Shown here one piece after another: positions 16,573 to 25,715 of a DNA stretch of 34,499 bases (position 1 is the first letter of the stretch; each line of letters begins with the position of its first letter). The notes beneath the pieces were generated by a model. That model did not search any database. It saw only the letters and a program-made list of their open reading frames with translations, and was not told the DNA's origin. Both the position numbers and the translations under genes were made by a program. The stretch is from NCBI RefSeq assembly GCF_007126775.1, contig NZ_SLAP01000204.1, forward strand, positions 1 through 34,499. Direction: 5' to 3'. Source of the DNA: Cecembia sp. Lineage in GTDB: Bacteria; Bacteroidota; Bacteroidia; Cytophagales; Cyclobacteriaceae.

Positions 16573-18834
16573 CTAGACCCCGGCCTTGATCAGGTTCAGG
16601 GCAGAACCTGCCTTAAACCATTCAATCTGACCTTCATTGTAGGTATGATTTACTTTTATTTCATCCTTGCTGCCATCTGCATGGTTCAAAACCACTGTCA
16701 ATGGCTTGCCGGGAGCAAAAGATGTAAGTCCAAGTATATCGATGGCATCATCTTCCTGAATCAGGTTGTAATCAGAAGGATTGTCAAAAGTCAAAGCCAA
16801 CATGCCTTGTTTTTTCAGGTTGGTCTCATGGATTCTGGCAAAAGATTTCACCAAAATAGCCCTGACCCCAAGAAAACGGGGCTCCATGGCAGCATGTTCT
16901 CTTGAAGAACCCTCTCCATAATTTTCATCTCCCACCACAATGGACCCAATTCCCTGTTGCTTGTACTGACGTTGTACTGCAGGTACTTCACCATATTCAC
17001 CGTTTAACTGATTCTTTACCTTGTTGGTCTCCTCATTGAAGGCATTTACTGCCCCGATAAGCATGTTGTTGGATATGTTGTCAAGGTGTCCCCTAAATCT
17101 CAACCAAGGACCGGCCATAGAGATATGGTCCGTGGTACATTTTCCCTTTGCTTTGATCAAAAGTTTTAGCCCTTTAAGGTCAATGCCTTCCCATGCCTGG
17201 AAAGGTTCCAACAATTGAAGCCTCTCAGACTTTGGATCTACCAATACCTCTACTTTTGAGCCATCAGCAGCAGGTGCTTGGTAACCTGCATCCTCAACTG
17301 CAAAACCTTTGGTGGGGAGTTCTAGGCCACTGGGTTCATCCAATCTTACCTGCTTTCCTTCCTCATTGGTTAAAGTATCCGTCATCGGGTTAAAGGTAAG
17401 GTCCCCTGCAATGGCCATCGCAGTTACGATTTCAGGAGAAGCCACGAAAGAATGGGTATTGGGATTTCCATCTGCCCTTTTCGCAAAGTTTCTGTTGAAA
17501 GAGGTAATAATGGAGTTCTTCTCTTGCTTTTCTGCACCATGACGTGCCCACTGCCCTATGCAGGGACCACAGGCATTTGCGAGTACTACCCCGCCCATTT
17601 TATCGAATACATTTAGGAAACCATCCCGGTCTACTGTAAACCTTACCTGTTCTGAACCTGGGGTAATGGTAAACTCAGATTTGGCAACCAGCTTTTTATC
17701 CACAGCTTGCTGCGCCAATGAAGCAGCCCTTGAGATATCTTCATAAGAAGAATTGGTACATGATCCTATCAGACCCACTTCCAATTTTGCCGGCCATCCG
17801 TTTTCCTTTACTGCTGCTGCAAACTTTGAGATTGGCCAAGCCAAATCCGGCGTAAATGGACCGTTGATGTGTGGCTCCAGTTCAGAAAGGTTGATTTCAA
17901 TCACCTGGTCAAAATATTTCTCTGGATGGGCATAGACCTCAGGATCTGCATTCAAATGTTCTTTGATGCCATCGGCCAAATCCGCTATGTCAGCTCTGTC
18001 AGTTCCCCTCAGGTAAGCGCCTGATTTTTCATCATATCCAAAAATTGAAGTTGTGGCTCCGATCTCTGCTCCCATATTACAGATGGTTCCTTTACCAGTT
18101 GCAGAAAGCGAATTGGCCCCTTCTCCAAAATATTCTACGACACTACCTGTCCCACCTTTTACAGTCAATATGCCGGCTACTTTGAGAATAACATCTTTGG
18201 CTGCTGTCCAACCTGAAAGCTTTCCTGTCAATTTCACCCCTATTAGTTTTGGGAACTTCAGTTCCCAAGGCAAACCTGCCATCACATCACAGGCATCTGC
18301 ACCTCCAACACCTATAGCGATCATTCCCAGACCACCAGCATTAGGCGTATGTGAATCAGTGCCTATCATCATACCTCCAGGGAATGCATAGTTCTCCAGG
18401 ACCACTTGGTGAATGATACCTGCCCCTGGTTTCCAAAATCCTATTCCATATTTATTTGATACTGAGGCCAAAAAATCATAAACTTCTCTGTTTTTATCCT
18501 TGGCTTTATTCAGGTCAGCAGTAGCTCCTATTTCTGCTTGGATCAGGTGGTCACAATGCACAGTAGATGGCACTGCCACTTTATCTCTCCCTGCCTGCAT
18601 GAACTGAAGCAGGGCCATTTGCGCCGTTGCATCTTGCATAGCAACCCTATCCGGGTTAAATTCCACATAAGACACACCCCTACCGTAAGCTTCCGTGGCT
18701 TCCCCTTTGGTGAGGTGTGCATATAATATTTTTTCGGTCAAGGTGAGTGGTCTTCCCACAGCTTTTCGGGCAGCCGCTATCCTGGAAGGATATTGATCAT
18801 AGACCGCCTTGATCATTTCTATATCAAATGCCAT
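16573..18834 (-). CDS. acn: Aconitate hydratase, mitochondrial (ACO2) type
   Basis: The product is 753 residues, the length of the mitochondrial-type aconitase rather than the roughly 890-residue AcnA. It interconverts citrate and isocitrate in the TCA cycle using a [4Fe-4S] cluster. The cluster cysteines are Cys359 in GSCTN and Cys422/Cys425 in ACGPCIG, with the 63- and 66-residue spacing seen in the pig enzyme. The N-terminal active-site region [13 protein letters not shown] and the C-terminal swivel domain motif [14 protein letters not shown] are intact. It has its own promoter and a terminator, so it is probably a single-gene unit. The type name is certain; the gene symbol is generic because naming differs between subfamilies. 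Confidence 0.95.
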
Positions 18835-21954: not shown

Positions 21955-22057
21955 CATTTGTTTAAAAAAATCTCTCAATTACCTTGAATTTATTTTTTGA
22001 ATTCGTTTAACTTGTTGTTCAAATAATTACAAAACCAACCGATAAATTCTTTTGACA

Positions 22058-22387
22058 GTGGACGAAAACAGAGGTAATGACAGAGAAGAAATCTTCTCGA
22101 GGAGAGTAAAAGCAGGTAAAAGGACTTATTTTTTCGATGTAAAGGCAACAAAATCAAATGATTATTATTTGACCATTACAGAAAGTAAAAGAAGGATGAG
22201 AGATGATACTTTCACTTTCGAAAAGCATAAAATCTTTCTCTACAAAGAAGATTTTGGTAAGTTCCTTGATGCCCTTCAAGAAGCTGTGGATCATGTAAAA
22301 AATGATCTGATGTCAGATTTTGATTTTTCCCAGTTTGATAGGGAAGAACCAGAAAATGAACTTGACGATGAATTGAAATGGGATTAA
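22058..22387 (+). CDS. DUF3276 family PUR-domain nucleic-acid-binding protein
   Basis: The product is 109 residues from GTG at 22058 (VDENRGNDREEIF); an in-frame TTG lies two codons earlier. The core REEIFSRRVKAGKRTYFFDV, KSNDYYLTITESKRR and FLYKEDFGKFLDALQEAVDH is the single PUR-alpha-like beta-beta-beta-beta-alpha repeat of DUF3276, a small protein widespread in Bacteroidota. Related PUR proteins bind single-stranded DNA or RNA, and the borrelial relative is a regulatory RNA-binding protein. It ends in an acidic tail (REEPENELDDELKWD). It is followed 20 nt later by an RNA-like folded element. Which nucleic acid it binds is unknown. Confidence 0.85.
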   Translation: MDENRGNDREEIFSRRVKAGKRTYFFDVKATKSNDYYLTITESKRRMRDDTFTFEKHKIFLYKEDFGKFLDALQEAVDHVKNDLMSDFDFSQFDREEPENELDDELKWD

Positions 22388-22508: not shown

Positions 22509-23591
22509 ATGAAGAAACCCATCGTTATTCTCATTATTATTATCCTGCTCCTATTGGCAGCAGGTTGGTATTTCTCTAATATCACGCTCTATTTTATTTT
22601 CTCGGTGGTACTGGCTGCCATTCTGCGTCCTTTGACCAATAGGATCAATTCCATTCATGTTTTTGGGCAACATGTTCCAAGGTGGATTTCTATATTCATA
22701 TCTTATATTGTGGTGGGGGTCATCGTTTTTTTGATTGGAGCCTTGTTTGTACCCCTTATTTCTGCCCAAATACAAGTGATCGCTACATATGATCTGGACT
22801 ACATTTATGAACAGATACAAAACCCTGTAGGAAAGATCGAAGACTTTCTTTTCCAATATGAAATCATACAGAGCGAGCCCGGTTTTTTGATCAAGCAGGT
22901 CAGGGAAAATCTTGTAAGTAGTTTTAGCATGTTGAATGTGCAAGGCATAATCAACACGATATTGAATACCACGAGCTCTATTCTTTTAGGTTTTATGGCC
23001 ATTTCCTTCATCACCTTTTTTCTTTTACTGGAGAATGGACTCCTGAGAAGAAACATTATGGATTTGGTCCCCAATTCCTATTTTGAGTTGGCTGTGGCGA
23101 CTTTTAATAAAGTGGAAAGACTCTTATCCAATTATCTGGTAGGTTTGGTGATCCAATTGAGCTGTATCTTTTCCTTGGCAGCTATAGGGCTTACCCTCAT
23201 GGGAATAGAATATGCATTGACCATAGCCATGTTTGCCGCTGTAGCCAACCTTATTCCTTATGCAGGCCCTATCCTCGGAGCTACTTTTGGTGTGATAGTG
23301 GGTTTATCTACCGGAAGCTTTGAAGGCTCAAATGAAATATTTTTTATGATCATTAAGATCCTTTCGGTATTTTCCGTGGTTCAGTTGACAGACAATGTAG
23401 TCTTACAGCCATTAATTTTCTCGAAATCAGTAAAAGCACACCCTCTTGAAATTTTTGTTATTATCTTTGCCGGTGCAAAAATCGCAGGCATCCTTGGGAT
23501 GATCTTTGCGATTCCTGTATATACTATATTTAGGGTGTCCTTTTTGGAGTTCTACAAAGGGTACAGGGAGTACAGCATCTTTAAACTGTAA
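22509..23591 (+). CDS. AI-2E family transporter (paralogue 2)
   Basis: The product is 360 residues with the same PF01594 arrangement as the gene at 9037: two adjacent N-terminal helices (about residues 5-40), a third at 55-80, an extramembrane loop, and a C-terminal bundle with [19 protein letters not shown] and [17 protein letters not shown]. It lacks the acidic/basic tail of paralogue 1 and has clearly diverged. Cargo is unknown; family members include the AI-2 exporter TqsA and Na+/H+ antiporters. YchF begins 15 nt after the stop, so the two are probably co-transcribed, which does not imply a shared function. The start codon lies only 9 nt after the folded element upstream. Confidence 0.85.
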
Positions 23592-23606: not shown

Positions 23607-24704
23607 ATGGCTTTACAATGTGGTATCGTTGGACTTCCCAACGTAGGTAAATCTACTTTATTCAATGCGCTGTCGAGTGCGAAGGCAGAGGCAGCTAATT
23701 TCCCTTTCTGTACCATTGAACCCAATGTGGGAGTGGTTACTGTTCCGGATAGAAGACTTAAAATTTTGGAGGACCTGGTCAATCCCAATCGGGTAATCCC
23801 CACCGTAATCGAATTTGTGGATATTGCCGGCTTGGTAAAAGGCGCGAGCAAAGGAGAAGGCCTGGGCAATAAGTTTCTGGCCAATATCAGGGAAGTAGAT
23901 GCCATCATTCACGTGATACGCTGTTTTCAGGATGACAATATTGTACATGTGGCGGGCAGTGTGGATCCGGTATTTGACAAAGAAGTTATTGATACCGAAT
24001 TGCAATTGAAAGATCTGGAATCTATAGATAAAAAAATTGCCAGGATTGAAAAAATTGCCAAATCAGGTGATGCAAAGGCCAGGAAAGAACTTGACATCCT
24101 GCAGCAATTCAAAAAGGGCTTGGAATCAGGAAAAAATGCCAGGGCCATTGAAATAGAAAGGGAGGATCTAGAGGCCGTCCGAGACCTGCATTTGCTGACG
24201 ATCAAACCCGTACTCTACGTGGCCAATGTAGATGAAAGCGCTATCATAAGTGGTAATGCTTATGTGGAGCAGCTCAAAGAAGCGGTCAAAGAGGAAAATG
24301 CAGAAGTAATCGTGCTCTGCGCTGCCATAGAGTCCCAGATTGCGGAATTTGAGGATCCAGAAGAAAAATCAATTTTCCTGAGCGAGTACGGGCTGGAAGA
24401 AAGCGGTTTGAACAAACTTATAAATGCTGCGTATAGGTTATTAGATTTGATCACCTATTTTACCGCAGGTGTTCAGGAGGTTAGGGCTTGGACCATCAAA
24501 AAAGGCTGGAAAGCTCCACAGGCAGCTGGCGTAATCCATACAGACTTCGAAAGGGGTTTTATCAAGGCAGAAGTAATCAAACTTCAGGATTATGAAAAGT
24601 TCAAGACTGAAGCAGGTTGTAGAGAAAATGGTAAAATTGCGATAGAAGGCAAGGAATATATTGTAAAGGATGGAGATATTATGCATTTTAGATTCAATGT
24701 GTAA
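23607..24704 (+). CDS. ychF: Redox-regulated ATPase YchF (Obg-related)
   Basis: The product is 365 residues, the standard length. Walker A is GLPNVGKST (residues 8-16) and switch II is [17 protein letters not shown], both diagnostic of the YchF/OLA1 subgroup. NVDE replaces the NKxD motif, the change that gives ATP preference over GTP. The coiled-coil insertion (about 130-200, [20 protein letters not shown]) and the C-terminal TGS domain ending [14 protein letters not shown] are present. YchF binds ribosomes and affects translation initiation and stress responses. It is a single-copy conserved gene, so it is a useful anchor for comparing this locus between species. Confidence 0.97.
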
Positions 24705-24725: not shown

Positions 24726-24733
24726 TACTTTTG
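24726..24733 (+). promoter_or_regulatory. Candidate -7 box for cas6
   Basis: TACTTTTG matches TAnnTTTG, 22 nt after the ychF stop. It implies a leader of about 65 nt before the GTG at 24806, which contains the palindrome AACAATTGTT (24775-24784). No good TTG was found at 17-20 nt. Confidence 0.4.
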
Positions 24734-24805
24734 CAAGAAACCAAACAAATTTATAGCGTTTAATAATCTTAGTTAACAATTGTTTAAATTTTATTTTTAA
24801 TTACC

Positions 24806-25681
24806 GTGAGAATAAGACTAATATTTTCCCTGAAAAACAAAGGTGCTTATTTACCCTTTCATCACCAGTACATTCTGGCACAGTACCTAAAGGGACTCAT
24901 CGTTAAAGGTGGGCGTGAGGAGTTTTTCAACTACAATTACTTCAACTTCTCTGGACTGAAAGGTCAGACCAAAGTAAGTAGAAGTGGACTTCATTACTAT
25001 TCCAGTTTAGTCACCCTAGTGCTTTCATCACCCAATGAAGATTTTATTGACTATTTACTGGAGCAGGTATTTGATACTCCAAAAGTTGAGTTAGGAAACC
25101 TCATTCTTGCCCCCGAGTACACAGAACAGGAAATTGAACCTGAATTGGAGAGTTCAAACAAATTTGTTTGTATTTCCCCTTTGGTGTTGATTACCCCTTC
25201 TTTCAATGATGAGTCAGGCAAACGTTTCATCAACCCAGATACGGATGAATTTTCTGATCTGCTGTATGAATCCACGCTTACAAGGATGGAAAAGTCCGGT
25301 TGGTATAACCAGGAACAAATGGAATCTTTCTATAAATTCCAGGTCGTACCGGACATGAATTATGTAAATAAGCTCAGAGAGCAGCAAAAGAAATTTGCAA
25401 GAATCTACTCTGTTTATGACATGGATGTAAAGTATGAAGTGAGGGGCTACACGCTTCCATTCACTTTATATGCAGCCAAAGAGGTTCAGGACTTTGTGTT
25501 CAAATGTGGATTGGGAGCATTTACCCACAAGGGTTTTGGAATGCTGGATCTTGCCAATCACCTGCCGAGCCAAAGAACAGAACCTTATAAGTTTAAAAGA
25601 GAAGGTTTTATCCCTTACAAAGCCCATACGGAAAGACAAAAACCGGATGAGCTAGACAAGGAAAGTGAAAAAGAAGATTAA
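24806..25681 (+). CDS. cas6: Stand-alone CRISPR-associated endoribonuclease Cas6 family protein
   Basis: The product is 291 residues from GTG at 24806. It shows the Cas6 two-ferredoxin-fold plan: an opening strand MRIRLIFSLKN, YLPFHHQYILAQYLKGLI where His19 or His20 could be the catalytic residue, LVLSSPNEDFIDYLLEQVF, the FVCISPLVLITPS strand, and the RAMP glycine loop GLGAFTHKGFG (235-245), an exact GhGxxxxxGhG. Cas6 cuts CRISPR precursor RNA within its repeats. No array or other cas gene is in the window. After the glycine loop, where Cas6 usually ends, there is a highly charged tail of about 45 residues. The RNA target here is therefore open. Confidence 0.85.
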   Translation: MRIRLIFSLKNKGAYLPFHHQYILAQYLKGLIVKGGREEFFNYNYFNFSGLKGQTKVSRSGLHYYSSLVTLVLSSPNEDFIDYLLEQVFDTPKVELGNLILAPEYTEQEIEPELESSNKFVCISPLVLITPSFNDESGKRFINPDTDEFSDLLYESTLTRMEKSGWYNQEQMESFYKFQVVPDMNYVNKLREQQKKFARIYSVYDMDVKYEVRGYTLPFTLYAAKEVQDFVFKCGLGAFTHKGFGMLDLANHLPSQRTEPYKFKREGFIPYKAHTERQKPDELDKESEKED

Positions 25682-25715
25682 AAAAATCCCGATCAAATGG
25701 TCGGGATTTTTTTTT
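25681..25715. terminator. Bidirectional terminator between cas6 and the Plug gene
   Basis: ATCCCGATC (25686-25694) pairs with GGTCGGGAT (25699-25707), one G-T pair and a 4-nt loop, with an A-run before and nine T residues after, so it can serve both converging genes. Confidence 0.85.

Follow-up and report, generated by a model that had tools for sequence, protein, structure and literature searches.

In Cas6e and Cas6f the catalytic histidine lies in helix 1 (His26 and His29, respectively), SsoCas6 is active without the canonical histidine, and the P. furiosus Cas6 with the structure 3UFC is non-catalytic (PMC3652601). The known exaptations of CRISPR components are mostly whole modules, repeats or element-borne systems (reviewed in PMC8730458). 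At the locus described here it is a single crRNA-processing protein that has seemingly joined the core genes of a large group of bacteria. Our search of open-access papers found no description of this orphan Cas6 clade, or of a Cas6 linked to YchF.

The protein and its relatives

The gene occupies positions 24806..25681 (+ strand) of the window, i.e. of the whole 34.5-kb stretch of DNA that was analysed, and encodes an orphan (CRISPR-independent) protein of 291 amino acids with a GTG start. Judged by curated profiles and an AlphaFold model, the product is a Cas6 homologue, with scores far above chance: PF01881 gives 75.9 bits (cut-off 23), TIGR01877 gives 73.2 bits (curated cut-off 58.65), and the best PADLOC match is Cas6b (1e-26). 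The AlphaFold (AF2) model, computed from 68 orthologues, has a mean pLDDT of 90.2 and shows a tandem RAMP (ferredoxin-like) fold along the whole length of the protein. Its matches to solved Cas6 structures extend over about 217-231 residues with Z scores of 24-26, the best being PH0350 (3QJJ; Z 25.8, 2.2 A over 229 residues), followed by the PfuCas6 paralogue 3UFC (Z 25.7), 5YI6 (25.6) and PfuCas6 3I4H (24.7). The Cas6 assignment made in the preliminary description is thus confirmed by profiles and fold alike. The glycine-rich loop that it had read as an exact GhGxxxxxGhG is also present, as GLGAFTHKGFG at residues 235-245 (25508..25540, + strand), and all four glycines are invariant in 68/68 orthologues and in 12/12 members from other orders.

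The charged tail at the C-terminus (about residue 267 onwards; 25604..25678, + strand) is a different matter. The tail exists, as had been described, but it is not conserved: the orthologues are 259-301 residues long, their alignment breaks down beyond about residue 267, and the tail is predicted to be disordered (residues 275-291 of the model have a pLDDT below 50). Since its sequence varies among orthologues the tail is probably unimportant, and we dropped it as a functional extension.

An orthologue with 43-95% identity is present in 128 (86%) of the 148 genomes examined from its family, the named close relatives being Cyclobacteriaceae such as Cecembia, Belliella, Echinicola, Cyclobacterium and Algoriphagus, and orphan Cas6 orthologues are found in 13 families of the order. 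A Pfam search detected Cas6 in the same 128/148 genomes. When the whole class was searched with a profile of the 68 orthologues, matches of 181-250 bits appeared in four families that belong to other orders of Bacteroidia, and the remaining matches scored only about 25-55 bits. The 12 loci from other orders encode proteins of 244-282 amino acids that are 30-41% identical to the window protein; the best Cas6 proteins of CRISPR loci reach about 25%. In a maximum-likelihood tree the orphans of the order and the other-order members group in a single clade (support 99/96) that excludes every CRISPR-locus Cas6 protein, and a separate, earlier tree restricted to the order agrees with the orphan clade. 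The 68 orphan sequences share 34 invariant columns; codon choice is free over most of the gene, and the reading frames are intact in nearly all carriers. The protein is under strong purifying selection.

Gene neighbourhood and start region

The gene directly follows ychF (PF06071 and MMR_HSR1; 23607..24704, + strand), as the preliminary description had stated, and this adjacency is kept in 53/68 diverse loci of the order. Further upstream are an AI-2E family transporter gene (22509..23591, + strand), which belongs to the neighbourhood conserved within the order, and a DUF3276 gene (22052..22387, + strand), found two to five genes upstream in 50/68 loci. Downstream there is a convergent type IX secretion system (T9SS) plug gene (PF17116; 25714..27027, - strand; 50/68 loci), and between the two genes we read from the sequence a terminator-like, G+C-rich inverted repeat with a T-run (25686..25715). 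In the 12 loci of other orders neither AI-2E, DUF3276, T9SS plug nor ABC-F genes were found as neighbours, whereas ychF is directly upstream in four (L244, L249, L250 and L251). As ychF alone among the tested neighbours persists in other orders, the ychF-cas6 pair is best read as ancestral. We note that the other eight of these loci, some of which are cut by contig ends, have no adjacent ychF, so the adjacency may reflect an inherited position and not a function. The orphan Cas6 of one family from another order is not next to ychF (L240:7606-8376, L242:7613-8383) but at a conserved place beside a sugar-transferase-like/aminotransferase-like cluster (names assigned by eye).

The evolutionary distances of Cas6 correlate with those of its neighbours weakly to moderately (0.44 for ychF, 0.50 for the T9SS plug, 0.08-0.18 for two other neighbours), the values probably being blurred by crude ORF starts, and they were not used as proof of congruence. 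A functional coupling to YchF is plausible from the gene order. E. coli YchF is in contact with IF3 and with the small subunit of the ribosome, and leaderless mRNA is translated more actively when YchF is missing (PMC8138138).

The orphan gene has its own promoter box of the TAnnTTTG (-7) type, TACTTTTG, at 24726..24733 (+ strand); the box had already been noticed, and it is retained in relatives as a conserved column block. A conserved, U-rich 5' leader element, ATTGTTTAAATTTTATTTTTAATTACC, directly precedes the start codon (24779..24805, + strand). The start codon and codons 2-11 (24806..24838, + strand) are under very strong synonymous constraint. Codons 2-8 are nearly frozen at synonymous sites, with a normalised entropy in 81 close relatives of 0.28 vs 0.81 in the rest of the gene; the corresponding values are 0.67 for ychF and 0.37-0.75 for other genes. 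Some constraint in the start region is also seen in DUF3276 and in the gene at 16573. All 81 close relatives start with GTG, and GTG or TTG is used in 59/68 diverse loci of the order; 11 of the 12 other-order members start with ATG. A non-ATG start in 132/141 orthologues overall is unusual for a conserved gene. ATTTTT tracts occur within 60 nt upstream in 57/68 loci, where about 12 are expected from shuffled sequences and 12 when scaled from control genes. The start and leader region is AU-rich. A hairpin pairing codons 1-3 with codons 6-8 was considered and is not claimed, as it shows neither covariation nor unusual stability, and an Rfam search of the window gave no match. IF3 discriminates against non-AUG starts. 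The non-AUG start and the constrained U-rich leader together suggest that in this Cytophagales-like order the synthesis of the protein is post-transcriptionally controlled, perhaps by the protein itself.

Active site and CRISPR context

In the CRISPR-type Cas6 proteins of these taxa the catalytic histidine is part of an LHxxG segment after helix 1, and this segment is missing in the orphan. The LH motif is found in 33/35 CRISPR-locus Cas6 proteins of the same phylum, one exception being a protein with a truncated start, vs 0/68 orphans. Among the CRISPR-type proteins, L225:4860-5648 and L226:9569-10348 encode divergent Cas6 sequences on a long paired branch, and the latter has no LH motif. The canonical triad of PfuCas6 consists of Tyr31, His46 and a lysine, which we take to be Lys52. 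In the profile alignment Tyr31 pairs with Lys29 of the orphan, and His46 falls into an orphan segment of variable length that has no conserved residue; a histidine was absent from this position in every orphan member examined.

The His19-His20 pair of the orphan (codons at 24860..24865, + strand) does not occupy the position of the LHxxG histidine. The pair had been placed in the first helix; it is present, but in the model it directly precedes that helix (residues 21-35). His20 is invariant in 80/80 orphans (68/68 of the order and 12/12 of other orders) and is the only histidine invariant across the class-wide clade, i.e. of the two features whose conservation was in question, His20 is conserved and the tail is not. 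In CRISPR-locus relatives this position mostly holds another residue, in many cases Tyr (NYQY vs HHQ in the orphan). The class-wide invariant residues are H20, S49, K52, S124, P125, D183, Y186, K195, G235/237/243/245 and D248, and Pro17, Arg199 and Tyr201 are nearly invariant. His63 is near-invariant in the order, and we dropped it as a catalytic candidate because the other orders do not conserve it. The overall pattern is compatible both with an active site that has moved and with an RNA-binding surface that has been remodelled.

That the gene encodes a domesticated Cas6, as had been proposed, is strongly supported: it is near-universal in the family, monophyletic across the class and syntenic with ychF, it has lost the canonical catalytic histidine, and 73 of the 128 carriers have no cas1. 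We consider it rather probable that this Cas6 parted from CRISPR in the distant past and has since been passed on vertically in Bacteroidia as an RNA protein with a housekeeping role. Such a protein likely acts on cellular RNA. By analogy with PfuCas6-type proteins, it would recognise a specific unstructured (U/A-rich) RNA in the cleft between the two ferredoxin-like domains. With lower confidence, we infer that it may slowly cleave the bound RNA. The catalytic residue would be His20, which lies where helix 1 begins, the region that holds the catalytic histidine of Cas6e and Cas6f, and Lys52, Tyr186 and Lys195 are candidate helpers picked by their conservation; we put the odds of nuclease activity by way of His20 at roughly even. 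With YchF as a retained neighbour, the target RNA might belong to translation or to mRNA handling under stress. In its most specific version, the idea is that Cas6 was domesticated class-wide in ancient times, that it is now a core RNA endonuclease whose active site has moved to His20, and that it is coupled in function to the ribosome-associated ATPase YchF and controls translation or the processing of RNA under stress in Bacteroidota; this version is tentative, and we regard it as rather unlikely.

A competing explanation, to which we give a substantial minority of our belief, is that nuclease activity was lost with the LHxxG segment and that the protein is now a pure RNA-binding protein, either a regulator (of its own mRNA included) or an RNA chaperone beside YchF. 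The loss of the canonical triad in all orphan members agrees with this, and the constrained U-rich leader and the non-AUG start hint at autoregulation. The protein may bind RNA without cutting it, because its closest structures, 3QJJ (PH0350) and 3UFC, include one that is called non-catalytic (3UFC, i.e. PfuCas6nc; PMC3652601). However, RNA binding by itself would not obviously call for a new histidine fixed in 80/80 orphans, and SsoCas6 stays active despite the loss of its canonical histidine (PMC3652601).

The preliminary description had also offered action in trans, i.e. maturation of crRNAs from arrays elsewhere in the genome or from visiting mobile elements. The CRISPR content of the genome that carries the window (3.82 Mb, 254 contigs, 91.7% complete) was checked by profile and repeat-pattern searches, the query repeat being the one typical of the family's arrays. 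Neither Cas1 nor a RAMPs-family protein (PF03787) nor a second Cas6 was found in this genome, ORF 24806-25681 being the single Cas6 gene, and the family-type (I-B-like) repeat, the only one sought genome-wide, has zero copies at up to 3 mismatches. Within the 34.5-kb window no direct-repeat array was found either, in agreement with what had been said of it, and there were no repeat arrays at five orphan Cas6 loci of other orders. As the genome is incomplete, there is a small chance that a CRISPR locus was missed.

The family-wide distribution points in the same direction. Among the 148 genomes cas1 is present in 55/128 carriers of the orphan gene vs 5/20 non-carriers (p = 0.15). Additional Cas6 genes were found in 27 genomes (one of which, G077, was counted from its listed places), and these genes track cas1, as 25/27 such genomes are cas1-positive (p = 7e-10); high-copy, array-type repeats of the family are found in genomes with an additional Cas6 (e.g. 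G018, G043, G053 and G127). Since the additional Cas6 depends on cas1 and carriage of the orphan does not, there are two kinds of Cas6 in the family: a CRISPR type, whose presence follows that of cas1, and an orphan type that is retained. A distribution following CRISPR had been named as an argument against domestication; what we find is carriage independent of cas1. Service to CRISPR in trans is consequently disfavoured and, in our estimate, very improbable: it could draw on the protein being a Cas6 homologue and on the cas1-positive carriers, but CRISPR-positive genomes often have a separate, canonical Cas6, and the orphans lack the LH motif and are inherited vertically and in synteny. Based on these sequence comparisons we are highly confident of the CRISPR independence and vertical inheritance of the orphan gene.

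If the gene were the decaying remnant of a CRISPR locus since lost, retained only by chance, the missing CRISPR partner and the lost catalytic motif would be explained, but this reading is refuted by the intact frames and by conservation (86% of the family genomes, a class-wide range and the 34 invariant columns), and we give it practically no credence.

Because curated models name the gene as a CRISPR gene, an orphan Cas6 of this kind is a false sign of CRISPR. It also allows one to test directly how a slow RNase of high specificity can be retargeted to cellular RNA. YchF is universally conserved and its role is poorly understood; the orphan protein may reveal a partner of it.

Comparison with known Cas6 proteins

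The orphan shares with canonical CRISPR Cas6 (PfuCas6; 3I4H, 3PKM) the tandem ferredoxin-like RAMP fold, the C-terminal G-rich loop and profile scores above the cut-off. It differs in having no array, no cas partner and no Tyr31/His46/Lys52 triad, and in its vertical, core-gene distribution next to ychF. SsoCas6 of Sulfolobus similarly misses the canonical catalytic histidine, and its lysine residues matter for activity; however, it works on CRISPR repeats, whereas the orphan keeps an invariant His20 elsewhere (PMC3652601).

A 218-residue second Cas6 (PADLOC PDLC02101) has the same short connection between helix 1 and strand 2 and branches closest to the orphan clade (97/90), a grouping that is unsure because the branch is very long (2.2). 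Unlike the orphan, it adjoins cas6 in Bacteroidota CRISPR loci. This Cas6b lies beside an ordinary cas6 at L221:7126-7782, L228:5899-6555, L218:10065-10721 and L122:819-1475.

The best PDB matches by both structure and sequence are the Thermococcales Cas6 paralogues PH0350 and PfuCas6nc (3QJJ, 3UFC), in which the segment of the canonical histidine is unalignable too. These proteins are archaeal, only 21-24% identical to the orphan, and carry NYNY at the position of His20, where the orphan has HHQ.
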